DNA of 23,521 nucleotides, from positions 1 through 23,521 of the IMG/VR virus record IMGVR_UViG_3300024348_000258. One strand, 5' to 3'. Below the pieces are notes generated by a model. It made no database searches. It worked only from the letters and a program-made list of their open reading frames with translations, and was not told the DNA's origin. Positions 2,872-23,521 of this stretch are shown here, in pieces (position 1 is the first letter of the stretch; every line of letters starts with the position of its first letter). The position numbers and the translations under genes were made by a program. This DNA comes from a virus.

Positions 2872-3473
2872 TGGTAAGCGGCGTAAGCAGTAGCCAAAAA
2901 GTACGTTTAACTTGTCCTAGTTTTGGATTCAGTGGATTATTGGCTCCGCTTCGCCAAACAAACGGAGTTACATTCCCTTATACTCCAACTATACAATTAG
3001 GTCATGCCGCTAACTATGGAACATATGATATCACGCACAGCGTATATCAACAACAATACTTTATTAACACACCTAATCCCAGTATAAGTGTAACAGCAAC
3101 ATTCACTGCTCAAACAACTGGAGAAGCGGCATACAGCGCCGCTGCACTGCACTTTTTTAAAGCTGCAACTAAACCAGAATTTGGCGGAACATTTTCATCA
3201 CGTGCGGGGGTCCCACCACACGTAATGAATTTTAGTGCATATGGCGCCCTACATGTGCAAAATGTTCCAGTAGTAGTAAAATCATTTACCTACACATTAA
3301 CTGAAGAATCTGACTATGTTACTTTCAATTCAGCAGTTGGTGAAGTATCACTGCCTACTATCTTTATCGTAAGTTTAGATTTAGGGGTACAGTATCCACC
3401 AAGCACAGTCAAACGTTCTTATAGTTTAACTAACTATAAAAGTGGCAACGGACTAAAGAGAGGATTTATTTAA
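2871..3473 (+). CDS. 48: Tail tube cap-like baseplate/tail protein (gp48-like)
   Basis: A 200-residue protein with the pattern seen in marine T4-like tail-tube-cap/structural proteins: an N-terminal LLAPLRQTNGVTFPYTPTI segment (about 24-42), a beta-rich ISVTATFTAQTT stretch, ALHFFKAATKPEFG, then PPHVMNFSAYG and a C-terminal beta-rich part. In T4, gp48 and gp54 cap the baseplate hub and start tail-tube polymerisation. The protein is clearly shorter than T4 gp48 (364 aa) and gp54 (320 aa), so it may combine their roles or be a minimal version. It lies between the nucleotidyltransferase and gp53 with TAATG overlaps on both sides; GAGAGG near the end serves the next gene. A structural role is likely; the exact T4 equivalent (48, 54 or another tube-related protein) is uncertain. 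Confidence 0.55.
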   Translation: MVSGVSSSQKVRLTCPSFGFSGLLAPLRQTNGVTFPYTPTIQLGHAANYGTYDITHSVYQQQYFINTPNPSISVTATFTAQTTGEAAYSAAALHFFKAATKPEFGGTFSSRAGVPPHVMNFSAYGALHVQNVPVVVKSFTYTLTEESDYVTFNSAVGEVSLPTIFIVSLDLGVQYPPSTVKRSYSLTNYKSGNGLKRGFI

Positions 3474-3763
3474 TGGCAACCAAGTACGATCCAGGAAGTA
3501 ATTATAGAAATACTTCTATAGTTGATAACAAATATTTGGATATATATGTATCTCCTATCGTAGGAGACATTAATGATTATGAGTTGCAGGATATTGTTGT
3601 TGAAAACAAATATAATCAGCGTCCAGACTTATTAGCATACCATCTTTATGGTAATGCAAAACTATGGTGGGTTTTCGCAGAATATAATCCTGATATACTA
3701 GTTGATCCAATTATTGATTTCGTAGGCGGAATGAAGATAACAGTACCGACAAGGTTTGGATAA
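3473..3763 (+). CDS. 53: Baseplate wedge protein gp53-like
   Basis: A 96-residue protein whose core (about 46-93) has the gp53 signature: YNQRPDLLAYHLYGNAKLWW, then a conserved AEYNPDILVDPIIDF and a closing GGMKITVP that resembles a LysM-type strand. T4 gp53 binds the wedge and helps wedges join around the hub. T4 gp53 is 196 aa, so this version retains only about half the length, essentially the conserved core. TAATG overlaps at both ends place it in one coupled operon with the putative tube-cap and hub genes. Recognition rests on the RPDLLAYxLYGxxxLWWxFAxxNP pattern and on gene order. Confidence 0.75.
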   Translation: MATKYDPGSNYRNTSIVDNKYLDIYVSPIVGDINDYELQDIVVENKYNQRPDLLAYHLYGNAKLWWVFAEYNPDILVDPIIDFVGGMKITVPTRFG

Positions 3764-5571: not shown

Positions 5572-6773
5572 TGGGCGGAGATGTAAAAACAACAGGTATA
5601 AACATTCCAGAACGTGGTAGGCGCGGTGATACACGCAATGTAAACTTGCCAAATGGAACATACACTGCTACTGTAGTATCAAACGAAGATGTAAATCGTA
5701 CAGGACGCATTACGGTTAGAATTGGTGAACACGGATCTCCAGAAGACAATCCTGCTGAACACGTTGTACTACTCATGTCACCTATGGGCGGCTCTAATGG
5801 ACACAAGGCATCGTCAGCGGATGTAGAAGATTCAAATACTACCGCACAGTCTTTTGGTATGTGGCCGCAGCCACCGGCGCCTGGTACAAACGTAGTAGTA
5901 CAGTTTAGTCCAGGTATGCAGCAGGGCATATTAATGGGGTCATTACTTACTGCACAAACCAACCATAATATGGGAGGCAATGCCAGTTCTGAAGATAAGG
6001 ATGGAAACATTGGACCAGTTGGCGAACAGAACCCATATGACACTGATCCACAAACACGCCCAACTGACACCGCACGTGGTGAACAACTAGCTGAACAAGG
6101 TTTGGAAGATGATTACGTTCGTGGACACAGTATGAGTAGTGCTAGACGTGAAAGTCCAAGCAAAGTTTTTGGTATTACAACTGCCGGCGGCGCTGTATTA
6201 ACTATGGATGATGGCGCCGCTGATGGTAGCGGCAGTCAGAACATACGCATACGTACACCGGGCGGCGGACAAATACTTATTGACGACAGCACGGGCATAG
6301 TATTCATTACTAACCAGAGCGGTAGCACACATATTGAAATGAACGCTGCCGGCTGTATTGACATTTTTAGTGAGAATAGTTTTAGCGTTGCATCAGCACA
6401 GGACATCAATTTCCACGCACAAGGCAATATTAACATGCAAGCTGATCAAGGTATCAATATTCAAGCAGGCGGCGATGGTATAAGAGCTGCAACTGATGGA
6501 CCACTGCATATGAAATCAACAGGTGTTGCCAACGTTCAAAGTGATGCTTCACTAAGTTTGAAATCCTCTGCTGCTATTAAAATGACAGCACCCAAGGTTA
6601 ATTCAAACAGCGGAGCAAGTGCTGACGCTGCTGAAAAGCCAACCCCAAATGGCCTAGTAGAAAACAGTGGCGTGTCACAAAGCGCAGCTAGCCGTGTTCC
6701 AGAGCGTCATCCATGGAACGGTGTGCCTGGAGTTCAAGAATCATTTACAACAGGGCAAGGGAAACCAGTATAA
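5571..6773 (+). CDS. 5: Baseplate central spike protein, gp5-like (OB fold plus beta-helix, no lysozyme domain)
   Basis: A 400-residue protein with the two outer modules of T4 gp5. Residues about 30-130 look like the N-terminal OB fold shared with VgrG (NGTYTATVVSNEDVNRTGRI, then GTNVVVQF and GILMGSLL). Residues about 195-345 form a repetitive beta region (KVFGITTAGG, then GGQILIDDSTGIVFITNQSG and alternating units such as GNINMQADQGINIQAG), matching the intertwined triple beta-helix that makes the membrane-piercing needle. The T4 lysozyme domain is missing; only a polar linker (about 131-190) joins the modules. The C-terminus ends in a Ser/Ala/Gly-rich tail and RVPERHPWNG. The next gene, overlapping by one base, encodes a lysozyme-fold protein. 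No PAAR tip protein gene is seen in the window. The spike assignment is strong. Confidence 0.85.
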   Translation: MGGDVKTTGINIPERGRRGDTRNVNLPNGTYTATVVSNEDVNRTGRITVRIGEHGSPEDNPAEHVVLLMSPMGGSNGHKASSADVEDSNTTAQSFGMWPQPPAPGTNVVVQFSPGMQQGILMGSLLTAQTNHNMGGNASSEDKDGNIGPVGEQNPYDTDPQTRPTDTARGEQLAEQGLEDDYVRGHSMSSARRESPSKVFGITTAGGAVLTMDDGAADGSGSQNIRIRTPGGGQILIDDSTGIVFITNQSGSTHIEMNAAGCIDIFSENSFSVASAQDINFHAQGNINMQADQGINIQAGGDGIRAATDGPLHMKSTGVANVQSDASLSLKSSAAIKMTAPKVNSNSGASADAAEKPTPNGLVENSGVSQSAASRVPERHPWNGVPGVQESFTTGQGKPV

Positions 6774-7507
6774 TGCCTAATTATGTAGTACGCCCAACAA
6801 CTGTAACAAGTGAAATGCTAAAAGACTTTAGCATATATCCCATCACTGATGAAACAGCCGTTACTGAACTAAAAGAATTCCGTACACTAGAAGCAAGCCC
6901 ACTACTACTTAACTTTGCGTTGCGACAGTACAAATGGACACCCTATCAGTATGCTGATGCTGAAGGAGTCAAACGCATTGGCTACAATACAACAAAAGGT
7001 AATGATGGTGTAGGACTAACGGAAACCCAGTCATACAGCTATTGGTTGGAAGATTTTAAAAATAAAGAAAGACGTTTTAAGAGCTTGTTTCCACTTGACA
7101 GTATGACGCAATCACAGTATGATGCTATGGTAAGCCTTCATTACTTTACGGGAAGATTTGAATATGTAGGAACAGACATCTGTAGATATGATCTCAGAGA
7201 CTACATTAGAGAGCGCAAGTGGGATCATATTGGAACAGTATTCATTTACAATGGTGCTGATCGTATGAGAACACAAGCAGAAGCAAAGATAATGATGCTT
7301 GGAAATTATGGAAGATACACAGACAGAAGTTTGTTAAAGGAACGTGGACTACAGTTAATCAGAGGGAATTATCCAAACAGAATCAAAGACGCACTCGCAC
7401 GGCAACAGGCTGAATACATATATTACGTAGAGACGCGGCGATTCTTACCCGGATTAACACAGGCTAGAAAACGGCAGATAGTAGATCAAGAACAGCGGTT
7501 AAGTTAA
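6773..7507 (+). CDS. Lysozyme-fold (GH24/T4-lysozyme-like) protein, probably catalytically inactive
   Basis: A 244-residue protein starting at the ATG that overlaps the gp5 stop; an upstream in-frame ATG at 6713 lies inside gp5 and is less likely. Residues 58-72 (YQYADAEGVKRIGYN) align with the T4-lysozyme core YKDTEGYYTIGIG, and SMTQSQYDAMVSLHYFTG plus a C-terminal FLPGLTQARKRQ match the helical lobe and the LPGLxxRR end of phage endolysins. Counting back from the conserved Asp62 (T4 Asp20), the catalytic Glu11 position holds Tyr53, and the Thr26 position holds Arg68; the His31 position is Thr. The fold is therefore probably retained with lytic chemistry lost. Given its coupling to gp5, which lacks its lysozyme domain, it may be a detached spike-associated module with a structural or glycan-binding role. 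Fold assignment is moderate; inactivity is inferred. Confidence 0.6.
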   Translation: MPNYVVRPTTVTSEMLKDFSIYPITDETAVTELKEFRTLEASPLLLNFALRQYKWTPYQYADAEGVKRIGYNTTKGNDGVGLTETQSYSYWLEDFKNKERRFKSLFPLDSMTQSQYDAMVSLHYFTGRFEYVGTDICRYDLRDYIRERKWDHIGTVFIYNGADRMRTQAEAKIMMLGNYGRYTDRSLLKERGLQLIRGNYPNRIKDALARQQAEYIYYVETRRFLPGLTQARKRQIVDQEQRLS

Positions 7508-8078: not shown

Positions 8079-8104
8079 AATACCCAGTGGAGACACTGGG
8101 TATT
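8079..8104. terminator. Hairpin between HNH gene and gp25, possible bidirectional terminator
   Basis: An 11-bp perfect stem (AATACCCAGTG with CACTGGGTATT) closes a GAGA tetraloop of the stable GNRA class, three bases after the HNH stop. On the plus strand the tail is only moderately T-rich (ATCTTA). On the minus strand the stem ends in a run of seven T, an ideal intrinsic terminator. It divides two late transcription units. Confidence 0.75.
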
Positions 8105-8124
8105 ATCTTAGCAGTTAATTTCTG

Positions 8125-8132
8125 CATAAATA
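8125..8132 (+). promoter_or_regulatory. T4-late-type promoter for gp25
   Basis: CATAAATA matches seven of eight positions of TATAAATA and lies just after the hairpin. With T4 late geometry the transcript would begin at position 8138, the A of the gp25 ATG itself. No Shine-Dalgarno is present between the promoter and the ATG. Confidence 0.6.
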
Positions 8133-8137
8133 TTATT

Positions 8138-8506
8138 ATGGCGGAAATTATAGGCATATCAAACTCAGGAACTACTTGTACAAGCGTGACGCTTACAGAC
8201 TTAGATCTGGCTTTATCAGATCTGAGAAATCATTTTTCTATTGTACCAGGTGAAAAATGGACACTGCCTGATTTTGGTAGCTATATATCGCATTATATTT
8301 TCGAACCACTTGACGAAGGTACTATTGAATTAATTCAACAAGATGTTGAACGTGTAGTTGCTTATGATCCAAGATTCGTTTTGGATAGTAGTAGTATAGA
8401 TGTTATAGAACGCGAGCACAAGGTAACAGTTAATATGAGTTTAACTTATATTCCACTGAGCCAAGTTACACAACTATCAATTGATTTTGATCGCGAAGTA
8501 TTATAA
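8138..8506 (+). CDS. 25: Baseplate wedge protein gp25
   Basis: A 122-residue member of the gp25/TssE family (T4 gp25 is 132 aa), which joins the wedge core and is thought to start sheath assembly. Visible signatures are EKWTLPDFGSYISHYIFEP (residues 39-57), where PDFG and FEPLDE are characteristic, followed by a helix and YDPRF (76-80). The family's conserved EPR motif appears here as DPR (77-79), a conservative change. The reading frame is open from 8087, but the start is placed at 8138 because everything upstream is hairpin and promoter and because the family begins near this point. gp6 follows after 11 bases, matching the usual 25-6 order. Confidence 0.88.
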   Translation: MAEIIGISNSGTTCTSVTLTDLDLALSDLRNHFSIVPGEKWTLPDFGSYISHYIFEPLDEGTIELIQQDVERVVAYDPRFVLDSSSIDVIEREHKVTVNMSLTYIPLSQVTQLSIDFDREVL

Positions 8507-8517: not shown

Positions 8518-11500
8518 ATGGCACAACGAGTAAGACAAACAAGATTATTTGCAGCAGAAGATTATATGGCTGTTTATGATTCTTATCTAAACGCAAACTT
8601 TAAGGCATTTGATTTCGACACCATTAGAGAATCAATGGTAGAATACATTAAATCAAATTATCCCGAAAGTTTTAATGACTGGATTGAATCCAGTGAATTT
8701 GTAGCATTGCTTGATGTTGTAGCTCAATTTGGACATAACTTGGCATTTAGACTTGATTTGAATGCACGTGATAACTTTTTAAGTACTGCTAAAAGACAAG
8801 ATTCAGTTTTTAAACTAGCTGAATTTTTAGGTTATCACCCGCGCCGCAATATGCCAGCCAGTGGCGAGTTAAAAATTGTTAGCGTAAAAACAAATGAAGA
8901 TGTATTTGGTGGTAGTGGAACAACACTGGCAGGCAAGGAAATTCGTTACGAAAATTCAAAAAATAATAACATTGATGACTTTATTACTGTACTAAACGTG
9001 GCACTAGCACAAAATAATCAATTTGGAAATCCAAGATCACAGGTAGGAATCAATGGTGTTACTACCGAAATTTATAGTTTTAACAATACCTCAAATCAAA
9101 TTGTTTTTGAATTATCAGGTGCAGTATCAGGCAGCAAACGGCCATTCAACGCTGTAGGTGTAGATTATAACTTTTTGAATAGAACATTAGAAGAATCAGA
9201 TCCTGATCCTGCTAAAGCATTTAATATTGTTTTTAGAAATGATGGTACAGGAATTAATAGTGACAGTAGTGGTTTTTTTGTAAACTTTAAGCAAGGCTCG
9301 CTTGCTTTTAAAGATTTTAGTATTGACTCACCTATAGGAAATTTATCTCTTGACGTTAACGTCAACAATGTGAATAATAAAGACGTCTGGGTACAATCAA
9401 TTAACGACAATGGAAATGTTATTAAGAATTGGAAAAAGGTTGATAACGTTTGGGGATTGAACGAAATATACAGTGTGTCATCTAAGGAAGATGAAAACAC
9501 TACGAGTAGAGATATTTTTGCTGTAAAAACTCGTGAAAATAATCAAATAAGTATTTTGTTTGCAGACGGACATTTCGGAAATTTACCTAAAAATCTTATT
9601 CGTGTATGGTATAGAGTTAGTGAAAACTCAACATATGTATTGCGTCCTGATGACATTGGATCAAAGAAAATAAATCTCCAGTATACTGGAATCGATGGAA
9701 ATATATACACTCTAACACTTACAGTTCAACTTAAGAAAAGTGTATCAAACGCTAGTGTGTCAGAGTCACTTGACGATATAAGAGAAAACGCACCAAAAAT
9801 ATATTCTGCGCAGGATAGAATGATCACTGCTGATGATTATAATAATTATATATCATCACTGAGTACAGGTATAATTAAATCAAAAAGCATAAACAGAACA
9901 CACAGTGGCCATACTCGTCATCTTGATCTTAAAGATCCAACAGGTGAATATGGTAAAGTTAGACTATTTGCTACAGATGGCTTATTAAAAAAAGCCGACA
10001 ATACAAAGACTGATGTTGCGAATAGCCTGACAAGTTATTCAATATTTGAGAATTATGTCAAGCCACTTTTGTCTGATCATGAATTGCTATCACTGTATTA
10101 TGATAAACATATAAATTATTTCTTAAGCACTAGGGATGCCTTCCCTGGAGTTTTCTATTGGAATACATACGACGGCATGACAGGATATATTACGGACGCA
10201 ACATCCAATGTGGTGGGAAATAATAATGAAAGCATTTATACATATTTCCTACAACCTGGGGCAATGGTAAAATTTGTTAATGGTAACAATGTTTACTGGG
10301 CAAGTGTTTCTAAAATGTTTGCTAACGGGTTGGGTGTTGACAATAATCTTGGAAACCCAAGCGGTTTGACAACCACTGGGCAGGGCGCAATCACTCTTGA
10401 TGTTGAAGTGCCTACTGGATCAACGATTGAAATTATATATATGGCATTTTCTAGACAGTTCACTACAGATGAAAAAACAGAAATCCTGACCGAAATAGAA
10501 AACAAAAGAAATTTTGTCATCAAATACAAACCATTTAATGGTACATGGCAAACAGCGATCAATCCAACTATTTCGTCTGCTCCTTCGCAATATAATTTTA
10601 ATGGTAACGAACCTAATGACTGGATGATCCTTTTTGAATACACTGGTAACACAAATGCCGAGACAAGTAGATTTAGCTATAGTATTACAGTGCGTGGGGT
10701 AAGATATGTATTGGAATCATCTCAAATAAGATTTAGTAATACCAGTAATGAATACAGACTTGATGGATATACTAAGAAAAAAGTAAGAGACACCATATTG
10801 TGTTTTAGAGAAGGAAATGAATTTGAGAAATTTTATGTATACGGATACGATGTTGACGAAAATGGATATTTCACCCCAAACCGTGTTAATTTGTCATTAA
10901 TAGATGATGATGAAAACTCACGACCTGACAATCCAGAATCATTTACTGATATTGTTGGCGGAGAAAATACTCAAATAGCTGATCAAAGATTTGAATGGAC
11001 ACACATTCCTGCTGTAAATGAATTAATAGATCCTAGTTTTAGTAATATAATAGATGTGTTTGTATTAACTAATTCGTATGATACAATTTATAGAAATTGG
11101 CTATTTAATGACTCAAATTTTACAGGTGAGCCACTTTCACCAACAATAGATGAATTAAATCAACAATTTTCCGATGTTGCATATAAAAAATCAATCAGTG
11201 ATTCCGTAATTTATAGACCGGTTAAGTATAAGGTATTGTTTGGTAATAAAGCATCATATGATTTACGGGCAAAATTTAAAGTTATAAAGGTAGCCGGAAC
11301 AAAGTATACTGACAGTGATATTAAATCAATGATACTAAAATTAGTATACGATTTTTTTGATACACGAAATTGGGATTTTGGAGAAACATTTTATTTTACT
11401 GAATTAGCATCATACATCCATAAGAATATGACCAATATTGTAAGTAGTTTTGTTATTGTGCCAGACGATCAAAACAGTGTGTTTGGAACATTGTTCCAGA

Positions 11501-11601
11501 TCACACCAATGAGTGATGAGCTGTTTATACCAGACGTATCACTAAGTGATATAGAAATTATAAGTTCAATCACAAAAGAAAATATTAGAGCAATAGGATA
11601 A
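8518..11601 (+). CDS. 6: Baseplate wedge protein gp6
   Basis: A 1027-residue gp6-family protein; gp6 forms the continuous ring of the T4 baseplate. The N-terminus (about 30-120) has the family pattern SEFVALLDVVAQFGHNLAFR, then NARDNFLSTAKRQDSVFKLA and LGYHPRR. The baseplate-J-like core appears around 345-375 (FADGHFGNLPKNLIRVWY) and around 424-445 (APKIYSAQDRMITADDYNNY), matching T4 gp6 at QRCVTATDYDTF. The C-terminus (about 905-1027) contains NWDFGETFYFTELASYI and SSFVIVPDDQ, as in marine T4-like gp6. It is about 370 residues longer than T4 gp6 (660 aa); the extra length lies between the J-like core and the C-terminal block (about 480-900). It follows gp25 by 11 bases and precedes the giant protein by 4 bases. 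Confidence 0.88.
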   Translation: MAQRVRQTRLFAAEDYMAVYDSYLNANFKAFDFDTIRESMVEYIKSNYPESFNDWIESSEFVALLDVVAQFGHNLAFRLDLNARDNFLSTAKRQDSVFKLAEFLGYHPRRNMPASGELKIVSVKTNEDVFGGSGTTLAGKEIRYENSKNNNIDDFITVLNVALAQNNQFGNPRSQVGINGVTTEIYSFNNTSNQIVFELSGAVSGSKRPFNAVGVDYNFLNRTLEESDPDPAKAFNIVFRNDGTGINSDSSGFFVNFKQGSLAFKDFSIDSPIGNLSLDVNVNNVNNKDVWVQSINDNGNVIKNWKKVDNVWGLNEIYSVSSKEDENTTSRDIFAVKTRENNQISILFADGHFGNLPKNLIRVWYRVSENSTYVLRPDDIGSKKINLQYTGIDGNIYTLTLTVQLKKSVSNASVSESLDDIRENAPKIYSAQDRMITADDYNNYISSLSTGIIKSKSINRTHSGHTRHLDLKDPTGEYGKVRLFATDGLLKKADNTKTDVANSLTSYSIFENYVKPLLSDHELLSLYYDKHINYFLSTRDAFPGVFYWNTYDGMTGYITDATSNVVGNNNESIYTYFLQPGAMVKFVNGNNVYWASVSKMFANGLGVDNNLGNPSGLTTTGQGAITLDVEVPTGSTIEIIYMAFSRQFTTDEKTEILTEIENKRNFVIKYKPFNGTWQTAINPTISSAPSQYNFNGNEPNDWMILFEYTGNTNAETSRFSYSITVRGVRYVLESSQIRFSNTSNEYRLDGYTKKKVRDTILCFREGNEFEKFYVYGYDVDENGYFTPNRVNLSLIDDDENSRPDNPESFTDIVGGENTQIADQRFEWTHIPAVNELIDPSFSNIIDVFVLTNSYDTIYRNWLFNDSNFTGEPLSPTIDELNQQFSDVAYKKSISDSVIYRPVKYKVLFGNKASYDLRAKFKVIKVAGTKYTDSDIKSMILKLVYDFFDTRNWDFGETFYFTELASYIHKNMTNIVSSFVIVPDDQNSVFGTLFQITPMSDELFIPDVSLSDIEIISSITKENIRAIG

Positions 11602-11605
11602 GAAT

Positions 11606-14600
11606 ATGTCAGATTTTAAATCAGATAATAACGAAAAAGCGGTAAACAAAACTAGAGCAGGTCGACGACCAGTAGTAAACATTGATACATCTGAATTCTT
11701 ACCTAAGACTTTTAGAACTCCGCTAAATCGTAAATGGTTAGACGCTACACTAAATCGGATGGTTTCAAAAGGAGATCTTGAAGATATTCATGGCTTTGTA
11801 GGAAAATATACTGGAGAAGTACTGGACAAATACGACGATGTATATATTAACACTGGATACGAAAATCAACTAAGCGCAGCAATTGTCTCTGAATTTAATG
11901 ACGTTGTGGTAGACCATATATCAGGCAATGATATCCTTAATAATATCAATTACAATTTTGAAAACTATTCTCTCAATGGCGCATATAATAGTCAAGCATA
12001 TGTTTTTGCTCCACCCATCAATATTGATAAGTTCTTAAATTACAGTCAGTATTTCTGGGCTCCTATATTGCCAATAATTGAAATAATTGATAATAGTGCT
12101 CCAGAAATTCTGGATCCTACTGTTGTATACGCTGGCAGACCATTCGCATCATTTACAACAACTGACGGTCCAATAACATTACATAATGGTATGATCGTAA
12201 AATTTGTTGGTAGCAGATGGCCAGTAGACATTATTAATAATGTATATCTGGTAACCGGTGTTGGAAAAAATATACGTTTTAAAATTTTAACAACGACAAT
12301 TTCAGTTACTGATATTTCAGAGACATACGATCTGGAGTTAGAAGTCTATACTAGCGTAGTACCACATACAGACAAAATATCTGGAGAGTTTTCTGTTAAT
12401 AATAAAAAGGATTATATAGTTATTAATAATTCTGACGAAATTTCGTCTGCATGGTCACGTGCAAACTATTGGGTTCATAGAGAGACATTATCATACATTC
12501 TAGAATTGAATAGCTCATTTGATATCAAGTCAGTCTTAAAGACAGAAAACCAAGCTAAACGCCCAATCATTGAATTTAATCCATTTATAGTTATGATGGA
12601 CAACGCATATGTTTCTTCTGTAACAAGAGATGAGCCAAAATTAACCCATTACAAGGGCAAGGTTAATTATCTTCTAGGAGTCAATCATTTGCCAGACTCT
12701 GGTTCTCTTGGAGGTGGTAATGCGCAGTATACTACTGTCATTGGAGACACAGTTGAAATTAATGGTGAATACGTTAAGGTAGACAGTTTAGTCGCATATC
12801 AATTGGATTCATATTCAGGTGAATTTGGAATATTCTTAATTAAAAGATCCGGCCAAGTAGAACTTTATGAAAATCTATCCCCTAACAATACATTTACAGT
12901 AATAAACGATTATGCATCTGGTGGCACGTATAACCAGCGAGATCTTTATGTAGATCAGGATTATCGTTTCCAGATATCTCAAGTAAAACTAGCACCAAAT
13001 ACTGCGCCAATGTTTAAGCTAGCGGACAAAAATAACGTATGGCTAGACGATTTCGACAGTTCAACTTTTACAGGCAGTAAGATCTTTTCTTATAAATCCA
13101 GTAACAGTTCAATAATTGACAGCGAATTGGGTTTTCCGCTCGCGTATAAAGATGCTGGTCTAAAAAGTGAAATATTATATGAAAACAATATAATAAACGA
13201 GAGACACACTTATCAAGAGGCATCAAGCAACGTTGAAAAAGAAATCAAAGGATACTATTTCTTTAAAATAGGAAACAATTTTTATTCATCATATTTCCCT
13301 TCAGCATTTTCTTTAGGTGCTAAAGAGCATGTTCAGGTAATTGCAGATTCAGGTTCAGATGTTGTTATTCCTTACGGTACTGATAATTGGAGCGTTAATA
13401 AAGAATACCTTGTTTTTAATTTAAATGGAAAAATTTCAACCAGCGAAATTTTAACAGAGGGCAGTTATAATAGATCTAGAACTAATCAAACAAACATCAC
13501 TTTGGGCGGCGGTAAGACATATACATTCCATAATTTACTGCCAGATGAAGAACTAAAGTTTTGGGATGTAGACACTGGTAATGATATTGAAACAATACCT
13601 GGCTACGAAGTTACAGTAGTAAGAGATGGTCCGTACATATATCTCCAGGTACCTGAATCATTTATCAGTCTGAACATCCTTTATGGAACTGTAGATATTA
13701 ACAACAGAGGCATTATAACAGTTGTTCCTAATACTGAAGATTTCTATCACCACCTTTACGTCAATGGTGTACATTTAGATGTAAGTGCGTATTCAATTAG
13801 TTCTAATTCAATAGTTATACCGTCTGCTCAATTAGTCGATGGTAAAAATATTATTGATTTAGAATACTATAGTAACAGCAATACAAATACTGGCAATACT
13901 GAGCTTCCAGAAATTCATAACCATAATAGTAATAATCTTCCACTCAGAGAATTTACTATTAGCGATACGCATGAACACTGGGAAAGTTTAATACGTTTTA
14001 CACCTGGTTTTACGGGCCAGACATATGGAGAAAACAATTATCATCTATCACTACAAAATAACGCATATGGTGGTGAAATATTCATGCATGAAGATATTAG
14101 TATTATGCATGACTATGCCTTTTCAAGTAATGAATTAAACATTTCAACTGCTATAGAAAATCAAGCAGCTGATTGGTATTCCTTTAAGAAACGTTTTATA
14201 AATCAGGTTAAACGAATTGCTATTAAAAATAACATAGAGTCAGTAAGTAAACTAGTTGACGATGTGTGCAATAATATTATCAAAGTATCAGATAATAATA
14301 ATCTTCACGCAGACTCCAATATGTATTTCCCACACAAGAGTCATTATAGAGAATACGTATATGTTCCTGGAGATACGTATAGATCCGCAAACGTACACTT
14401 CAATATTGACGAACACAAACAAGATCATATTTACATCTATGTTGTCCACAATCGCGATTCTGATAATATACCTGTTGAAGAAATGCTTCAATATAATATT
14501 GATTATGAGATTAACGGATCAGTAATAAACATTAGTAGTGAGCTGGTATTGAATCCTTTCACCAATGGTGAAGATATTAAAATAAAGATATATTATCATG

Positions 14601-17600
14601 ACATGGATGAGAAAAGCTATATTCCAGCCAGCATGACAAAACTAGGACTTTCATACCTATATAGACCACGTCTGATGGGAAATAAAATTATCTGTCACGA
14701 CGGTGAGGAAATAGAAGTGCCTGGGGGTACTGAAATATTTAAAGTTTCTGCAGAGGAGTTCAATCCTCTATTAGCTGCACTTTATGATTTAGAAACAAAG
14801 ATATACACTGGTATCAAGAAAACAAGTTATAGAGCCACATATAGCCCATTAAAATACTTCTCATCACAACACAGAGGACAATGGTATTCTCGTAATGATG
14901 TTGACGGTTATATTAAACGTTATTTTGATCTTTGGTTTAATAAATCAAATTACACTGATTTAAATGATGCTATTCATGTTTACAGAGATGAAAACGATGC
15001 ATGGACCTGGAATTATTCAAGCATTGCTCTTGATGAACAAGGGCATCTAAATTCATCACTACCTGGGAATTGGCGCGGTGCATATGTGACATTGTTTGGT
15101 ACATCCACTCCACATTTAACACCATGGCATATGCTTGGATTTAGAAACCAACCTTCATGGTGGGGTGAATTCTATAGCTGGACAGATCCAATCAAAAGAG
15201 ACAGGCTAATCAAGTCACTGAAATATGGCATTGTGAGCCGTCCAGACGAACAAATAGTACAGGATCTTTATTATGCAAGATATTACTGGGATTTTGATAC
15301 AAAATGCCCAGTAGACACAAACAGAGATTTAGTAAGTCCTGATTTAATTTTAGGAGATCCTGGCGATAGTAAGCTAGATGAATTTGTATTTGGTGATTGG
15401 TCGCCAATTGAATTTATCTGGAGAAGTTCTGTTCTTGGACAAGCTGCTCACCTGGATGCCGTTATTAAATTGTTACCTGCAAAAGCCTGGACTGATTTCT
15501 TTAAAGTTGGCCAGTATATTAGAATGCCAAATTCTGATATGATAATTGACAAAGAATCTGGACTCTTTATATCAAATCTTGACATGAGATATCACGACGA
15601 TTCCGATGGTAAAATGGTGGGAACCGTTATTATTAATAGATCAGACAGCGGATTTCCATCCGGAACAGAAATATTGTTTGTTGGCGGGACCCCAGACACT
15701 TCTGCAACTGCTACGTTAGACATAGACACAGATGGAAAAATAGTAGCCGTTAACTTAACAGGACGTGGCTATGGATACGATTCTAATCCTGCATATCAGT
15801 TTTTGTTTCCTGAAGGATATGTTCCATCCGGCGGCATGTCGCCAACAGCAGAATTAGAATTTAATATGGTCACATCTTCTAATTGGACTATGGGAATTAA
15901 CCACCTACAGCAGAATTCGATTAAAAGAGAAAAACTCAGTAACCCAATCCAACTTGGTAATATTTACCGTGGTTTAGATACAAGACTATTACAGGATATT
16001 GCAGGTTTTACAAGAAGTGACCTAATTAAGGTAGAAACAGAGTCTGGCGCAGCTGGTAAACATGTTCTGTCTAACTCCGATTTTAACATTGTTATGAATG
16101 AAAGTTCTCCTAAAGATTTATATATTGCTAGCGAGATTTATATTACTAAAACTGATAGTGGTTATAATATTTCTGGTATAAGCCCGACCAAACAACAATT
16201 CAAGTTTTTTGAACCAGCACCAATCAGTTCAAATGATTTTGTTCCTGTTACTGTAAACAATAGCTTTGTTGTTAAAAAGTACAAAACATTTAGTAGCAGT
16301 GTCTCGATAATCGAGTTCAATTCAAAACTTGCCAGAATTCAGGATGTTTATAATTTTATTAGAGGATATTATTCATATTTGGAAAGTGTTGGGTATGTCT
16401 TTGTAGATTCATATGAGGCAAAAGCGATTGACTTTGCAACATGGGCATCAACGACAGATATAAATGAAAAATATACAGTAGCCATTGGAACCAGCGTTTC
16501 TTTTGTGGCAACAGGCGGCGTTGCCGCGGAATATGGAAGTATGCCAGGCGGAGTTAATAGTATACTCGCTTATAACGAAAATGGCGAATTAGTAGAAATT
16601 AACTACAGTGATTTATGTATCACAAGAACAGACAATTCTATACAGATACACCCAAGAGGTTATCCTGTAGATCTAAGTGAACCAAGCGAATCAATTGTCA
16701 CATATACGTACCAGTCATCTACAAGTACACAATACAGTGATATTCAAGACATTAGATCAGTTTCAAGTAAAAATGCGGACAAAATTGCATGTGTTGCAAC
16801 CGCTGTGATTGAATATGATCATGCAATAATCTTTAAAAATACCACACAGTTTAATGAAATAATTTACGATGATGTAGTAAATCACAGACAACAGCGTTTA
16901 AAAATTTCTGGGCAGCGTACCAGAGATTGGGCTGGCGTAAAATCAGCGCCAGGATATTTAATTAAAAACAATACTATTATACAAAACTATGACACTGCGG
17001 TTTCTGACATTAGTGACATTTATAATCTTAACGTCACAAAATTTAATAAAGATTATGAGGCAGCTGAATTATTAACAGTGGGAAATACACTTAAAGACTG
17101 GATTAATAATTTAAACTTGGCATCAAATACATCTTCAAAACTATATCAAGGATTGATTAGAAGAAAAGGTTCTAATGGTGTCCTAGGTATTATGAATATA
17201 TCAGACTTAATCCACGGCGGCAGAGGGCGTATAAACGTCAATGAAGAATGGATGTTTAAACACAGTAGTTATGGAGATACAGTACGTGAAAATGCTACTG
17301 AGATAGAATTAAACACAGGTATGTTTGTTAATGATCCAGTGGTTATTAATTTCGAGGATCCTAGTATTGTCTTTATAAACAGACAATCAGATCAGGAATT
17401 CAGAGTACGATCACAGGATGAAGTAAAACTATCCTTGCCAGTAGCAGGAAATCTACAGAAAGGCGATGCTGACTATACAGCATTTAAAGTTGAAGAATTA
17501 CCAAACCTATACAATAGTGATTCAGTTTATGCCAATATTCCTACATGGAGCCCAAGAAAATCTTATAGACTGGGCGATACTGTACGTTATAAAGGAAACT

Positions 17601-20600
17601 TATGGGAAGCCAGTGAAAATATTTCATACATAGACCAGTTATCACCACTGGTGTTTACTGGAACAGAAGTTGTTACTAATACACAATTCACACACAGAAA
17701 TGAAATTGATGATCCCAACACACCTTCAGCTGAAATAGACGGTGTAAAAATTTGGTTTGATAAAACAGGTATTACTTGGCCAGCTATAACAGTAGAAGGC
17801 GATCCTAACCCAACCATTACATCGCCAACAACGTTGTATGTTGCAACAGGACCAGCATCAAACGATACTATAGAAATACCATTGGAAAAATATATAAACG
17901 TAACAGTTGTAGATGATACTGCCATTTACGACGGTAATCCATATGTAACTACAGTTTCAAATCCGTCTAGCTCTGATGTAACTGGTGAGACAATCATTAT
18001 TAATGGTGAAACAATTAACCTTCAAGACTTTGGTACAGCAGCATACACTAATTCATCTGAAAATCTTACAGGTGTAGCAGCGCAACAAGTTTATACACTT
18101 ACAACCAATTTAACGACACATAATATAACCGCTATAGAAGTAGACTCTGTAACATACAATACTCCTGCTGACTGGACAGTGGTTGGACAGGATATAACGT
18201 TTACTAATCCAACGTTTGTGGGCGGCGAAGCAATTGTAGTTAGCTTATTAACAATAAATCCAACCAGCTATAGTATGAATAAGGCACAGTTAAAAGACGC
18301 AATAAACAGCAATACGTTGGGAAATGTTTTCTGTCAAAACCATGTTAGTGATGCTACAAAACTAGCAATAGTTAAAGACGTTGCGGGTGATATCAATAGT
18401 AATCTTGTTTTAAGTGGCACTGGACTAACACAGTTCGGATTAAGTGCAGGGTCAACTCCGCCAACTACACGAATAGATTCAATAAACACTACAACGATGG
18501 ACATTGACGACATACTTGCTGCTATAGACCAAGTTAACACCACTGGTTATGCATTTAGTAAAACAGTTGATAATAGGCTTGAAATAATAAAGTTTTCTAA
18601 TACCAATTGGACTGTTAACACTACACTAGAGATAAGCGGTCCAGCACAATCGCCACTTGGATTGCCAACGTCTACAATTGTTGGTGCTTATTCTGAAACG
18701 GGTATTACGTCTAGCATCAATGACGTAATTCAATATATTAATGATGCCAGTATACCTGGAGTAACAGCATCTGCGATATCCGGAAGAATACAGATAAGCA
18801 GCACAAATGAAGTTCTGGATTTAGGAAACAGAGAATTCAATTCACAAGCCACACTTCCAACAGGAGTTTACTATGCTGATATTGGCTTTGTTGATAATGA
18901 ATTTGTAACTTCTCAGTGGGGAGGATCTCCAGTAAACGTTGATGATGCAGCAAGATTTAGTGTCTGGCTAGCAAATGATGCGGGCTTAGAGAAAACATCA
19001 ACAAACGGCGTTACTTCTAAATTCTTTGGATGGAATGTATTACAACCGCAAGTATTCCGCATGTGGGCTACAATTGATGCAGCAAACGAAACAGACGACG
19101 GTAACGATGCAGCACTAACACTGTACACTGATGATGATCAAATAAGAAATATAGACTCGATGAGAGTTGGTGACTATGTGCTGGTTTTAAATTCAAATAC
19201 ACAGCCAAATATTGATGGTATACATCGTGTAACACGTGTGAGCGCAACTGACAAAGCTACATTCTATATAGATAAATTTATCGAAACTTCGGGTAACTGC
19301 CAGAGTGTAATGGTATTGAGATCACTTCGCTTTAATACATTCACAGGTCTACAATCTACACTAAGTATGCCATCCTTCTACAACTGGCAAGTTGGTGACA
19401 AAGCATGGGTTACTGAGAATAATACAACCAATAAAGTATATGAATATAACGGATCTACATTTGAATTAGTATTTGAAAATTCTGACAGAATAGATAGTGA
19501 TCAAATCGAATCTGTTCTTATCTACAATGGAGACATTCAAGAGATAGGAATAGAGTTAGAATTGTTTGATCCGATTAAGGGATACGTACCAGGGGTTGCT
19601 GATAGAGAAATAAACAAGAAATCAACTGTAGACCTAGCAACATATAATATGTCAAATGACGCAGATTATGTAACAACACAGCGCGGTGCGTGGGGCGATG
19701 ATGAGGTAGGAAAAACTTGGTGGGATACAAGTAAGGTAAGATACTACGACTATGAACAGGGTGATATAGATTATAAAGTAGATATGTGGGGGGAACAATT
19801 CCCAGGATCATCTATAGATATTTACGAATGGACAAAGAGTAGTGTTCCACCAGATGAGTGGGAAAACGTAGTAAAATCTCAATCAGAACAATACGGTGTA
19901 GAAGCATCTGGGGTAGCTTATAGTGTGTTCAATGCAGCAAGCGACGAATACTATTATTACTATTCATTAATTCAAGAATGGAATGAGAAATATGCTAGAT
20001 ATGATGACGTATATTATTTCTGGGTAAAAGATAAAACTACAGTATCAGGAAATAATAGAAAGTTGTCAACAAGTCAGATGGCAAGTATAATAAGCAATCC
20101 AACAGCCAATGGAATATCATGGTTTGCACCAATTGGATCATCACAACTCATATTGGCAAATATAAAAAACAGTGTCAATGATATAAACAGTATATTGCAA
20201 ATATCATTTAAATCATCCAAGCCATCACACCAGAGTTGGATTACACTAACAGAAGGATCAGACTTGATTCCTGATTATTGGTATATTGGTCTGAACGATA
20301 ACCTGCAGGGAACACAGCGTGTAACTGGATATCCTCTACCAGATCTTGACATTCACAGATTTAATCGTTACGGAGATAACAGAAAGATAACATCAAATGG
20401 CGATACGTTTGCGCAAGGTTGGTTTAAAGATCCATGGCATGCAAGACGAGAAGCAATAAAAGTTATTAACCGTCTATTAAAGAATGAAAATCTTCTGGAT
20501 GATCTGTCTGGGAAATGGCATAGAAATATAACAAAAACTTTATATTTCTTTAATGATGATACTGTTTATGGGACATCAATTGACGATGTGGGGATAATTG

Positions 20601-22144
20601 ACTGGCCGTATATAGGTGCGACATTCTATAATACTGACACAGATACCTTCTATACATGCACAAGTTTTGATGAATCTACCAACAATGCAGAATGGAATAT
20701 AAATCCAGGCTTCCAGATGGTTAACACTTGGAATTGGACAAGCTATATTTCAAAACAAAGATCAGATGATGCGCAACCAAGTATTGAAATTACTAGCCCA
20801 GCTAGTCTGGATAGCATAGATCCAGCAAATCATAGAGTTGTTCTACTACGTGTTCCTTACGATAGTACAGGATTGGAACGAGATGAAATTTACGAATACC
20901 TATTTGGTAATTGGGTTCTGGTTGAAAAGAAAAACGCAACGGTTGAATTTAATGATCTAGTACATAACAAGAATAATGTTTATTCATGGGACATATTTAC
21001 TTGGGAAGGAGTCTGGGACTTTGATCCTGGATTTATGATGGGTTATATTCTCAAAGCATGTCGTGAAGATTTGTTTATTGAACGATATATAGACAATTTT
21101 AATGAGTTATTCTTTGCAATGATAAAATACACAGCAAGTCTGCATAATCAAATTGATTGGTTCTATAAAACAACATATGTAAGACTTGATATTGAATCAA
21201 GACTTTCAAGCGATGTTAAGAAATATACAAAGTCACATGTTTCTGAAATAGAAGGATTTGTTAATAGTGTTAAACCTTTCCATACAAAGATTAGAACTAT
21301 ATTTGATAAACACACTGCAACAGAAGAAGTGTCACTAACTATTGAAGAACTAAATTCAGGTAACAAGAGTATAGATATAAAATTTGATCTATTGGATGGT
21401 GTATATCAGACTAAAGGGACTACATATCTGGGTGGCATATTTACTGAAGAACCAGATGAAGGTCTATTCAATGAAAACGATCATTTATTTACAGTAGAGC
21501 CGGATGACACTTTCATTGAAGATGTGACAGCATTAGAAATGAATTTTGGAGAGGCATTCGACGCAGCATATAACTGGAATGACACATTAGGAATTGAAAG
21601 ACGTAATCTAGTAGAATTAGTTCTGACAGAAAACTTAGCTATTAACGTTGTAACCAATGTATCAGGATCAACCGATGACAACGATACTAGAACATACGTT
21701 TACATTAAGAATAATTTAGCCAGCACCGCAAGTTATAGTTTGACAGAATCCAATGCTACTACTATAGTGGGTGATGTCACACAGGATGACGATGTTATTG
21801 TTTTAAGTAACGGCGCCGCATTTAACGCACTTGGCGGATACGCATATATCAATGGTGAAGTTATACAGTATATGCAAAACGACAGCGGCACCCTATATGG
21901 TGTAAAGCGCGGCATTGGAAATACATTAGCTAGATCACATGTTGGCGGAACACAAATTATAGATATCACTGATATGCAAATAAGCAGCAATGCGGCATTC
22001 CAATCAGACTGGTTCTACGATGATGGATACTATAAAACATATCCTGGTTACGATGTATTCTCAGAAGAGAGTATACTAAGTAATAACGCAGTAAACCTTG
22101 AATCAATTAGACTTAAAAACACATCTAAAGGGGTACTGGTATGA
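11606..22144 (+). CDS. Giant virion structural protein in the gp7 position
   Basis: A 3512-residue uninterrupted ORF taking 45% of the window. It occupies the slot of T4 gp7 (1032 aa), directly after gp6 with an AGGA ribosome binding site inside the gp6 end. The N-terminus (about 35-150) includes PLNRKWLDATLNRMVSKGDL and FAPPINIDKFLNYSQYFW, and about residue 1155-1195 contains LPGNWRGAYVTLFGTSTPH and PWHMLGFRNQPSWWGEF; both recur in very large tail proteins of marine and jumbo myoviruses. About 1340-1420 is a beta unit with GRGYGYDSNP. W1981 begins a CBM5/12-like patch (W-SY-GD-V-Y-G-W). About 2220-2410 has three units like flagellar IN motifs. Near 3080-3200 come DPGFMMGYILKACRED and VNSVKPFHTKIR, and about 3400-3460 an INGEVIQY...RGIGNT...H unit. 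A tail/baseplate role is likely; identity with gp7 is positional inference. Confidence 0.7.
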   Translation: MSDFKSDNNEKAVNKTRAGRRPVVNIDTSEFLPKTFRTPLNRKWLDATLNRMVSKGDLEDIHGFVGKYTGEVLDKYDDVYINTGYENQLSAAIVSEFNDVVVDHISGNDILNNINYNFENYSLNGAYNSQAYVFAPPINIDKFLNYSQYFWAPILPIIEIIDNSAPEILDPTVVYAGRPFASFTTTDGPITLHNGMIVKFVGSRWPVDIINNVYLVTGVGKNIRFKILTTTISVTDISETYDLELEVYTSVVPHTDKISGEFSVNNKKDYIVINNSDEISSAWSRANYWVHRETLSYILELNSSFDIKSVLKTENQAKRPIIEFNPFIVMMDNAYVSSVTRDEPKLTHYKGKVNYLLGVNHLPDSGSLGGGNAQYTTVIGDTVEINGEYVKVDSLVAYQLDSYSGEFGIFLIKRSGQVELYENLSPNNTFTVINDYASGGTYNQRDLYVDQDYRFQISQVKLAPNTAPMFKLADKNNVWLDDFDSSTFTGSKIFSYKSSNSSIIDSELGFPLAYKDAGLKSEILYENNIINERHTYQEASSNVEKEIKGYYFFKIGNNFYSSYFPSAFSLGAKEHVQVIADSGSDVVIPYGTDNWSVNKEYLVFNLNGKISTSEILTEGSYNRSRTNQTNITLGGGKTYTFHNLLPDEELKFWDVDTGNDIETIPGYEVTVVRDGPYIYLQVPESFISLNILYGTVDINNRGIITVVPNTEDFYHHLYVNGVHLDVSAYSISSNSIVIPSAQLVDGKNIIDLEYYSNSNTNTGNTELPEIHNHNSNNLPLREFTISDTHEHWESLIRFTPGFTGQTYGENNYHLSLQNNAYGGEIFMHEDISIMHDYAFSSNELNISTAIENQAADWYSFKKRFINQVKRIAIKNNIESVSKLVDDVCNNIIKVSDNNNLHADSNMYFPHKSHYREYVYVPGDTYRSANVHFNIDEHKQDHIYIYVVHNRDSDNIPVEEMLQYNIDYEINGSVINISSELVLNPFTNGEDIKIKIYYHDMDEKSYIPASMTKLGLSYLYRPRLMGNKIICHDGEEIEVPGGTEIFKVSAEEFNPLLAALYDLETKIYTGIKKTSYRATYSPLKYFSSQHRGQWYSRNDVDGYIKRYFDLWFNKSNYTDLNDAIHVYRDENDAWTWNYSSIALDEQGHLNSSLPGNWRGAYVTLFGTSTPHLTPWHMLGFRNQPSWWGEFYSWTDPIKRDRLIKSLKYGIVSRPDEQIVQDLYYARYYWDFDTKCPVDTNRDLVSPDLILGDPGDSKLDEFVFGDWSPIEFIWRSSVLGQAAHLDAVIKLLPAKAWTDFFKVGQYIRMPNSDMIIDKESGLFISNLDMRYHDDSDGKMVGTVIINRSDSGFPSGTEILFVGGTPDTSATATLDIDTDGKIVAVNLTGRGYGYDSNPAYQFLFPEGYVPSGGMSPTAELEFNMVTSSNWTMGINHLQQNSIKREKLSNPIQLGNIYRGLDTRLLQDIAGFTRSDLIKVETESGAAGKHVLSNSDFNIVMNESSPKDLYIASEIYITKTDSGYNISGISPTKQQFKFFEPAPISSNDFVPVTVNNSFVVKKYKTFSSSVSIIEFNSKLARIQDVYNFIRGYYSYLESVGYVFVDSYEAKAIDFATWASTTDINEKYTVAIGTSVSFVATGGVAAEYGSMPGGVNSILAYNENGELVEINYSDLCITRTDNSIQIHPRGYPVDLSEPSESIVTYTYQSSTSTQYSDIQDIRSVSSKNADKIACVATAVIEYDHAIIFKNTTQFNEIIYDDVVNHRQQRLKISGQRTRDWAGVKSAPGYLIKNNTIIQNYDTAVSDISDIYNLNVTKFNKDYEAAELLTVGNTLKDWINNLNLASNTSSKLYQGLIRRKGSNGVLGIMNISDLIHGGRGRINVNEEWMFKHSSYGDTVRENATEIELNTGMFVNDPVVINFEDPSIVFINRQSDQEFRVRSQDEVKLSLPVAGNLQKGDADYTAFKVEELPNLYNSDSVYANIPTWSPRKSYRLGDTVRYKGNLWEASENISYIDQLSPLVFTGTEVVTNTQFTHRNEIDDPNTPSAEIDGVKIWFDKTGITWPAITVEGDPNPTITSPTTLYVATGPASNDTIEIPLEKYINVTVVDDTAIYDGNPYVTTVSNPSSSDVTGETIIINGETINLQDFGTAAYTNSSENLTGVAAQQVYTLTTNLTTHNITAIEVDSVTYNTPADWTVVGQDITFTNPTFVGGEAIVVSLLTINPTSYSMNKAQLKDAINSNTLGNVFCQNHVSDATKLAIVKDVAGDINSNLVLSGTGLTQFGLSAGSTPPTTRIDSINTTTMDIDDILAAIDQVNTTGYAFSKTVDNRLEIIKFSNTNWTVNTTLEISGPAQSPLGLPTSTIVGAYSETGITSSINDVIQYINDASIPGVTASAISGRIQISSTNEVLDLGNREFNSQATLPTGVYYADIGFVDNEFVTSQWGGSPVNVDDAARFSVWLANDAGLEKTSTNGVTSKFFGWNVLQPQVFRMWATIDAANETDDGNDAALTLYTDDDQIRNIDSMRVGDYVLVLNSNTQPNIDGIHRVTRVSATDKATFYIDKFIETSGNCQSVMVLRSLRFNTFTGLQSTLSMPSFYNWQVGDKAWVTENNTTNKVYEYNGSTFELVFENSDRIDSDQIESVLIYNGDIQEIGIELELFDPIKGYVPGVADREINKKSTVDLATYNMSNDADYVTTQRGAWGDDEVGKTWWDTSKVRYYDYEQGDIDYKVDMWGEQFPGSSIDIYEWTKSSVPPDEWENVVKSQSEQYGVEASGVAYSVFNAASDEYYYYYSLIQEWNEKYARYDDVYYFWVKDKTTVSGNNRKLSTSQMASIISNPTANGISWFAPIGSSQLILANIKNSVNDINSILQISFKSSKPSHQSWITLTEGSDLIPDYWYIGLNDNLQGTQRVTGYPLPDLDIHRFNRYGDNRKITSNGDTFAQGWFKDPWHARREAIKVINRLLKNENLLDDLSGKWHRNITKTLYFFNDDTVYGTSIDDVGIIDWPYIGATFYNTDTDTFYTCTSFDESTNNAEWNINPGFQMVNTWNWTSYISKQRSDDAQPSIEITSPASLDSIDPANHRVVLLRVPYDSTGLERDEIYEYLFGNWVLVEKKNATVEFNDLVHNKNNVYSWDIFTWEGVWDFDPGFMMGYILKACREDLFIERYIDNFNELFFAMIKYTASLHNQIDWFYKTTYVRLDIESRLSSDVKKYTKSHVSEIEGFVNSVKPFHTKIRTIFDKHTATEEVSLTIEELNSGNKSIDIKFDLLDGVYQTKGTTYLGGIFTEEPDEGLFNENDHLFTVEPDDTFIEDVTALEMNFGEAFDAAYNWNDTLGIERRNLVELVLTENLAINVVTNVSGSTDDNDTRTYVYIKNNLASTASYSLTESNATTIVGDVTQDDDVIVLSNGAAFNALGGYAYINGEVIQYMQNDSGTLYGVKRGIGNTLARSHVGGTQIIDITDMQISSNAAFQSDWFYDDGYYKTYPGYDVFSEESILSNNAVNLESIRLKNTSKGVLV
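22127..22133 (+). promoter_or_regulatory. Ribosome binding site for the 19-codon ORF
   Basis: AAAGGGG inside the 3' end of the giant gene, seven bases before the ATG at 22141. It is the main reason to treat the short ORF as possibly translated. Confidence 0.45.
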
Positions 22145-22201: not shown

Positions 22202-22786
22202 ATGAAAAACACTTTTAACGATAATTCATTACTTAGTATTGATGGACATGTAATTATCAAAGACCCAGATTCTGGTGAAGTATTGCTTGATAAGCATAAT
22301 GCTATCAACTTTGAAAACATGACTGTTGCAATTGCACATTTGTTGGCAAATCAATACGATGGTAGTAATGCTTACTTTATAACACGACTTGATTACGGAA
22401 ATGGTGGCACATTTATTGACGGTGTCGGACTTGTGTCATATAGATCTCCGTTAGTTAGTGGTGAGTCGGGTGGAATGTATAATAAAACATACGAAAAATC
22501 TGTTAATACTGTTGATCCTGAAAATAGTATAACAGTTGTACCATATGCATCAAATAACTATACAGACATTGTATTAACAGCAACACTAGATTGGAATGAA
22601 CCAGCTGGTCAAGCACTAACTGATACATCATCTGGTGATGGCGTTACAGACTTCATATTTGATGAGATTGCTATAGCTACAGAGGCAGGCCTGTATTTAA
22701 CACATCTAATCTTCCATCCTATCGAGAAGAGCGCTAACCGTAGAATACAAATTGTTTATACAATAAGAATAAGGGCAGGAAACTAA
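22202..22786 (+). CDS. Conserved-type tail/baseplate-associated structural protein
   Basis: A 194-residue protein. The N-terminus (residues 12-48) reads LSIDGHVIIKDPDSGEVLLD followed by a KHNAINFENMTVAIA segment. The C-terminal half has YTDIVLTATLDWNEPAGQAL, FIFDEIAIATEAGLYLTHLI and HPIEKSANRRIQIVYTIRI. I recall this arrangement (an 'own' beta domain announcing an attribute, then an EPAGQ block and an HPxxKSxNR block) from uncharacterised structural proteins of cyanophages and other large myoviruses, but I cannot assign a T4 gene number. No signal peptide or membrane segment is present. GGAG nine bases upstream supports the start. It lies between the giant baseplate protein and a tail fibre, so a role at the baseplate periphery or fibre attachment is plausible inference. 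Confidence 0.6.
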   Translation: MKNTFNDNSLLSIDGHVIIKDPDSGEVLLDKHNAINFENMTVAIAHLLANQYDGSNAYFITRLDYGNGGTFIDGVGLVSYRSPLVSGESGGMYNKTYEKSVNTVDPENSITVVPYASNNYTDIVLTATLDWNEPAGQALTDTSSGDGVTDFIFDEIAIATEAGLYLTHLIFHPIEKSANRRIQIVYTIRIRAGN

Positions 22787-22787: not shown

Positions 22788-23521
22788 ATGGCGTACAGAG
22801 TAAACAGTTTTAATCAAGACACTGCACTGCTAGTTCAAGATGCTACCCTAAACAAAGAAAGTCATCTGACACTGGTTGGTAAAAACTGGTATGGCTATGG
22901 TGAAATCATGGCTGAAAATTTGTATCATATAACAGAGAACTTCGCAAAAGAATCAAATCCAGATTCAGCTAAATCTATCCGTGGACAAATTTACTATAAT
23001 ACCGCAGAAGAAAAATTTTATTATTTTGATAAAAAACCAACAGATGGCGGCCAGTGGCGAGATATGAGACTCGGATCAGTTATTCCTCTAACTATTAAAG
23101 ACACTGGTAATAACGACCACTATGTAACAATTATTGCTGACGACAATAATAATATTATTTCTCTTGCATCTAACGACTCTTTTGATATTAGAAGTGATCA
23201 GGACAGTTTACCATACGATGTCTATACTACATTTTTTAATGTGTCATCATCTACGTCTCCAATCGGTCGCGGAATTAATTTAAATCCTACCGCAGATTAT
23301 AAATTCCATGGTACTGCAACAAGCGCACAGTATGCTGACCTTGCAGAATATTATAGCAGCGATGCAGAGTATGAGCCAGGCACAGTACTAAAGATTGGTG
23401 GCGAAGCAGAAGTAACACAGACAACAACAGCATTTTGCCCAGATGTATTTGGCGTAGTATCAACAGATCCTGCATATTTGATGAACAGTAATTTAGGCGG
23501 AACACGTGTAGCAGTTGCACT
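22788..23521 (+). CDS. Tail fibre protein, 3'-truncated by the window edge
   Basis: An open frame from the ATG at 22788 to the right edge (244 codons seen), with AGGA about eight bases upstream. The N-terminal part (about 25-85) shows SHLTLVGKNWYGYGEIMAEN followed by LYHITENFA, then RGQIYYNTAEEKFYYFD. This matches the repeated N-terminal module of fibre-type proteins in marine T4-like phages (LTLxGxxxxxYGExxxENxxxxxENFA...GQxYYxT). Further on (about 185-240) ATSAQYADLAEYYSSDAEYE, PGTVLKIGGEAEV and VFGVVSTDPAYLMNS match the conserved block that often precedes the fibre C-terminus and is associated with self-processing or chaperone regions. The protein probably binds the host surface or links a fibre to the baseplate. 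The receptor-binding tip, if any, is outside the window. Confidence 0.8.
   Translation, partial: MAYRVNSFNQDTALLVQDATLNKESHLTLVGKNWYGYGEIMAENLYHITENFAKESNPDSAKSIRGQIYYNTAEEKFYYFDKKPTDGGQWRDMRLGSVIPLTIKDTGNNDHYVTIIADDNNNIISLASNDSFDIRSDQDSLPYDVYTTFFNVSSSTSPIGRGINLNPTADYKFHGTATSAQYADLAEYYSSDAEYEPGTVLKIGGEAEVTQTTTAFCPDVFGVVSTDPAYLMNSNLGGTRVAVA

Follow-up and report, generated by a model that had tools for sequence, protein, structure and literature searches.

The 3,512-residue protein encoded directly behind gp6 is probably a greatly enlarged gp7-type wedge protein from a jumbo phage of the T4 superfamily, and not a fusion with gp8-gp11. Throughout, the window denotes the whole stretch of DNA analysed, the 23,521 bases of the IMG/VR record IMGVR_UViG_3300024348_000258. 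The giant protein (P0001, predicted mass 395 kDa) is encoded on its plus strand by an unbroken, ATG-start open reading frame (ORF) at 11606-22144, separated from the gp6 stop (11601) by 4 nt. At 37% GC, the chance of an open frame of this length is about 10^-107. The complete ORF recurs unchanged in two further IMG/VR contigs, L001 and L002, and is thus no assembly accident of the present record. As the record is only a fragment of a virus known over 54 kb in all, the absence of gp8-gp11 was assessed in relatives. The baseplate neighbourhood comprises the genes below; the single 10.5-kb ORF after gp6, followed by a 194-aa protein and a fibre gene, was seen just as the original prediction had described it.

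3473..3763, plus strand: gp53 wedge protein, 96 aa (PF11246 over its cut-off)
5571..6773, plus strand: gp5-type central spike without lysozyme domain, 400 aa (phrog_13211, E 2.3e-22)
6713..7507, plus strand: separate tail lysozyme, phage lysozyme family (PF00959, E 6.9e-7)
8087..8506, plus strand: gp25 sheath initiator, 139 aa (PF04965 over its cut-off)
8518..11601, plus strand: gp6 baseplate wedge protein, 1027 aa, J-type, presumed partner of the giant (phrog_10646, E 3.6e-264)
11606..22144, plus strand: giant virion protein P0001, wedge protein in the gp7 slot (PHROG_10938, E 4.5e-182; 99 non-redundant co-linear relatives)
22202..22786, plus strand: 194-aa protein directly 3' of the giant (phrog_11259, E 3.5e-54)
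22788..23519, plus strand: fibre-like gene, cut at the end of the window (312 aa when complete, in L002)

The gp6 of the window also matches the T4 gp6 family phrog_219 (E 4.9e-26), the match to the T4 gp6 N-terminal family being kept. The lysozyme-family ORF overlaps the end of the gp5-type spike, so its annotated start is uncertain. On the plus strand, the gene order runs from a structural gene through gp53, a 602-aa structural gene, the gp5-type spike, the lysozyme, an HNH-like gene, gp25 and gp6 to the giant, the 194-aa gene and the fibre. On the minus strand, synteny with 121Q and RaK2 identifies a gp46-like gene (its start only), a gp47-like phosphoesterase and a late sigma factor. An identical order is found in 121Q, PA5oct, GAP32, RaK2 and XbC2 as far as the giant; the genes beyond it differ. 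In Phosso (L006 27129-39654), the giant and fibre genes are closely followed by several radical SAM genes. Between the sigma factor and the baseplate genes of the window, a 213-aa ORF (2230-2871) contains GRFQPMHQGH, which by eye is typical of nucleotidyltransferases.

The giant is a further member of an already known but uninterpreted orphan family. It matches PHROG_10938, listed as a "virion structural protein" family of jumbo phages (121Q, RaK2, GAP32, PA5oct, SCTP-2, Phosso), in four stretches over much of the chain, and the same profile is matched by all nine relatives compared (9/9). By tblastn, the C-terminal part was found in 82 phage records and the N-terminal part in 74, and profile-guided scans of IMG/VR confirmed 556 and 455 relative-encoding stretches. 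Over 70 sequenced phage records and over 450 viral contigs contain the family. Complete members measure 2918 to 4654 aa (median 4085), and 99 non-redundant members are co-linear in the alignment. Conserved blocks lie at about residues 50-200, 450-550, 750-1300, 1450-1650, 1720-1950, 2640-2900 and 3050-3250, with variable inserts between them. With the named members (121Q gp582, RaK2 ORF070, GAP32_230, PA5oct gp355, CBB_236, phAPEC6 gp245, SCTP-2 gp140 and Phosso 294), the giant shares the co-linear blocks and the slot after gp6 at about 21-30% identity, while having an insert of its own at 1960-2640 and a shorter C-terminal tail. The gene is flanked constantly: gp6 stands directly 5' in 143 of 143 loci, mostly overlapping or no more than about 20 nt away, and a gene of about 200 aa, related to the 194-aa protein, stands 3' in 63 of 63. 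Family members are also present in virions. The 381.9-kDa gp245 of phAPEC6 was detected by mass spectrometry (PMC7247149) and CBB_236 by proteomics (PMC5259590), and the PA5oct record carries a note of ESI-MS/MS detection of its giant relative. The gene is thus genuine, conserved and fixed in its place directly behind gp6, and its family encodes components of the virion. None of the phAPEC6, CBB and PA5oct sources calls the protein gp7, nor is a gp7 annotated in 121Q, RaK2, GAP32, PA5oct, CBB, phAPEC6, SCTP-2 or Phosso. In phage AP-J-162, too, a gp6-type wedge protein is followed by a 4455-aa 'structural protein' (PMC11242549), and elsewhere the family is misnamed in records as 'D-alanyl-D-alanine carboxypeptidase' or 'chitin-binding type-3 domain-containing protein'.

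Along the chain, the following parts can be distinguished.

11606..15505, plus strand: N-part, residues 1-1300, a separate gene of about 1.1 kaa in one clade of relatives (split ORFs; AlphaFold2 model of 1-1000)
15503..15865, plus strand: natural fission zone, residues ~1300-1420, a low-occupancy linker (split ORFs; occupancy 0.39-0.57 at residues 1301-1450)
16982..17245, plus strand: candidate gp7 core, residues 1793-1880, motif FYQG..(R)KG(S/T) (best window for T4 gp7 and cyanophage gp7 profiles)
17483..19525, plus strand: variable insert of beta modules, residues ~1960-2640 (occupancy mostly 0.44-0.66)
19523..21385, plus strand: conserved C-block, residues 2640-3260, ending in VKP(F/Y)HTK at ~3222-3228 (family alignment; AlphaFold2 model of 2600-3512)
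21785..21985, plus strand: beta module (..ING.VIQY..RG..), residues ~3394-3460, common to cyanophage gp7 chains (cyanophage gp7 ORF matches)

The AlphaFold2 model of residues 1-1000 (pLDDT 78, pTM 0.75) is beta-rich with only Ig-like matches; that of residues 2600-3512 reached pLDDT 74 and pTM 0.51. Together they open 1,913 of the 3,512 residues to structure comparison, for which the best 50 PDB matches per search were considered. Foldseek returned generic Ig-like and beta matches for both models, and from the viral library chiefly the family itself. A PDB sequence search with profiles of the two end blocks gave no match, and the single match of the middle-block profile, to a Legionella effector chain, was dismissed as chance-like. 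Within the variable insert, residues 1980-2001 form a CBM5/12-like motif (PF02839, E 0.003, under its cut-off); PF02839 is found in 10 of 29 sampled family members, with a best E of 1.9e-7. This motif would be compatible with host-contact modules on the arms of the giant, a fit that proves nothing. The ING.VIQY..RG module near the C-terminus was matched by 81 cyanophage gp7 ORFs (best E 1e-8; hhalign 62.9%).

The identification as a gp7-type protein starts from position. The gene after gp6 is gp7 in T4, gpI in P2 and gp48 in Mu, and a gp7-core giant in a cyanophage. The wedge of T4, XM1 and related systems comprises two gp6-type chains and one gp7-type chain, and in XM1 and T4 the N-terminal part of gp6 pairs with gp7 (PMC10457771). 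As the position is conserved and gp6 keeps its N-terminal family match, the giant is the likely gp7-type partner. Like T4 gp7, P2 gpI, Mu gp48 and XM1 gp17, it occupies the slot directly after gp6 and has a candidate core stretch. In contrast to T4 gp7 (1032 aa), it is 3.4 times longer, and neither a significant standard profile match nor a counterpart of the T4 beta-domains was found.

Standard comparisons were indeed negative. Aligning T4 gp7 by hhalign with 300-residue windows of the giant gave no significant similarity along the whole chain, while the T4-cyanophage control worked; the giant core against the cyanophage gp7 core reached E 0.03 only, which is not significant; and Pfam gave no significant gp7-core match. 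These results, with the lack of gp7 among the best 50 PDB matches of the two modelled ends (1-1000 and 2600-3512), speak for an unrelated wedge or periphery protein that has taken over the gp7 position. We consider this doubtful, since the position behind gp6 is conserved and a column-score scan of our own, in which gp7 profiles were compared with 171 giant windows and 600 column shuffles, brings T4 and cyanophage gp7 to one site. Residues 640-765 of T4 gp7 and 150-225 of cyanophage gp7 both rank residues ~1781-1880 of the giant first among the 171 windows, in the same register as in the T4-cyanophage gp7 alignment. The cyanophage score there is 26.4 (shuffles 12.5 +/- 2.4), reached by 0 of 600 shuffles; the T4 score is surpassed by 21-34 of 600 (about 3-6%). 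For the middle segment of P2 gpI as well, windows 1821/1841 come out on top, with 1121-1161 almost level. In the reverse direction, an HMM of giant residues 1790-1895 matched 33 of 818 frames, 32 of these on the gp7 core, and only one of 33 tiled giant windows, 1803-1908, which overlaps the former, did likewise (34 of 35 matches); the remaining 32 gave no HMM match on the gp7 core.

T4 and cyanophage gp7 are homologous and hence not independent witnesses, and the many gp7 ORF matches count as one event. The same HMM method also linked giant residues 743-848 to the cyanophage gp6 N-terminus (E 7e-5); this candidate was rejected, the jumbo gp6 profile scoring under the shuffles there, and it indicates that chance links of such strength occur. 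Resemblances to N- and C-terminal motifs of P2 gpI and Mu gp48 (LLP.., KP.H) gained no high rank in the scans and remain leads; the IMG/VR relatives of these two proteins are too similar for deep profiles. Judged by these sequence comparisons, a gp7 core at about residues 1793-1880 is a rather likely candidate. The giant gp7 of cyanophages (PHROG_2885; 2995 aa in Synechococcus phage Sf-FS3) likewise follows gp6 directly; common to it and the jumbo giant are a beta module of the ING-VIQY-RG type and, as a candidate in the latter, the gp7 core. That core lies at ~150-225 in the cyanophage protein, as against ~1793-1880 here.

One clade of relatives carries residues ~1-1300 and ~1420-3512 as adjacent genes, so that the giant has two separable halves. 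Nine contigs form this clade, in which the N-part gene ends at residue ~1300; two of the nine, L123 and L261, come from a single contig, and split ORFs are seen in L121, L122, L123, L257, L260, L261 and L262. Where complete, the N-part gene comprises 1120-1823 aa (in L259 it runs off the contig), and the second gene starts at ~1332-1425 where the contig extends that far. The candidate gp7 core resides in the second gene, not in the gp6-adjacent one, which counts against the gp7 reading. No relatives of the split-clade N-part were found in a search of bacterial and archaeal genomes. An apparent split in L071 looks like a frameshift, and further ones in L075 and L108 are undecided.

Such an arrangement could mean that two proteins of different function are united in the giant, one a gp6-adjacent N-part (~1-1300), the other a gp7-core protein (~1420-3512). 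Separate genes with the same boundary agree with this, as do an extra ORF of 330 aa between the two genes in L121 (9101-10093) and an extension of about 700 aa in the first gene of L123/L261 (L261 10001-15472). We regard it as improbable. When the FastTree tree computed for the N-part is rooted at its midpoint, the split clade, with support 1.0, falls within the fused members, which makes fission of an old single chain the simpler course unless the root lies on the branch of that clade; moreover, the two parts may still work as one unit. The L123/L261 extension has Thr-rich linkers and a Gly-rich tip and, by eye, looks like a receptor-binding end. Either this extension or the 330-aa ORF suggests an outward-facing attachment point.

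The original prediction held that gene fusion or expansion may have let the giant take the place of several wedge and periphery proteins. Its premise that gp8-gp11 are missing is borne out by the profile searches. No match to the gp8, gp9/10 or gp11 families was found in the 54 kb known of the virus itself, and the Pfam families for gp8, the gp9/10 N-terminus and gp11 gave nothing over cut-off in eight complete or near-complete relatives (121Q, PA5oct, SCTP-2, Phosso, Vibrio 2.275.O, deposited as partial, GAP32, RaK2 and XbC2), with the T4 control genes found. The T4 gp7 family phrog_964 matches T4 and the cyanophage only, not the jumbo relatives. Nor was gp8 found in 13 more long viral contigs (113-340 kb), among which the gp9/10 N-terminus gave one 38-residue match over cut-off and two weaker ones. 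These absences are sequence-profile results, which strongly diverged copies may escape.

The missing families would suit a fusion of gp7 with gp8, gp9, gp10 and/or gp11, and the giant with its 3512 aa exceeds the T4 length sum of 2475 aa. A fusion with gp8-gp11 is nevertheless unlikely, indeed very much so for any combination of these proteins. Pfam and PHROG searches over the whole of P0001 recognised no gp8, gp9, gp10 or gp11 domain. Structure comparison likewise brought up no T4 baseplate protein among the best 50 PDB matches of modelled residues 1-1000 and 2600-3512. Matches of the Phosso giant to the gp8-like phrog_438 were rejected, as they fall on profile positions 191-262, outside the stretches that match T4 gp8 (3-86, 139-185 and 441-478). 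The T4 proteins differ in oligomeric state, with monomeric gp7, dimeric gp8 and trimeric gp9-gp11 (PMC3004832), so that one covalent chain fits poorly and would need another stoichiometry. Finally, in cyanophage Sf-FS3 the T4 gp7 core is found within the 2995-aa protein after gp6 (hhalign 97.6%, E 3.6e-12), and this phage also has separate gp8 and gp9/10-type genes; a giant gp7 therefore needs no loss of the others. Of the two routes proposed, expansion of a gp7-type protein reads better and fusion finds no support, and of the replacement itself the non-detection of the families in the eight relatives stands. A differently built baseplate periphery is a fair inference for these relatives, in which the gp8-gp11 families were not found.

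For the expanded gp7-type protein, we postulate that its gp7-like core (~1793-1880) would hold together the pair of gp6 chains of each of the six wedges. The long flanking arms, largely beta modules, would make up the outer part of the baseplate and offer the fibre network its docking sites; standing in for T4 gp8-gp11, they would extend to the rim, bearing fibres and host-contact modules. Tentatively, and with less confidence than in the gp7 identity, one chain of about 3,500-4,600 residues per wedge may, throughout this phage lineage, combine gp7 scaffold, outer baseplate and fibre-docking platform, rendering gp8-gp11 unnecessary, with the fission boundary between the outer arm and the gp6-binding half. 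If the giant is the gp7 of these phages, it supplies the missing wedge subunit of jumbo-phage baseplates and indicates that complex baseplates can also be built in ways other than with the gp8-gp11 periphery of T4. The split clade offers a natural boundary for expression and structure solution of the giant in two pieces.

Although the classical periphery genes of T4 cannot be recognised, fragments of their products turn up repeatedly in fibre proteins. In PA5oct, the fibre gene two genes past the giant (gp358, L004:32308-34053) contains the T4 gp10 C-terminal domain PF21939 (E 9.8e-24), and RaK2 fibre proteins include gp10- and gp9-like domains (PMC10253068). The PA5oct gene is a weak instance of the gp7, gp8 or gp10 homologues elsewhere in the genome that the original prediction had named as evidence against it. 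On the contig of L176, a 2852-aa ORF is headed by a gp9/gp10-type segment (G007:C1:51949-52062; PF07880 positions 1-38, E 1.5e-7), which may anchor a large fibre to the baseplate.
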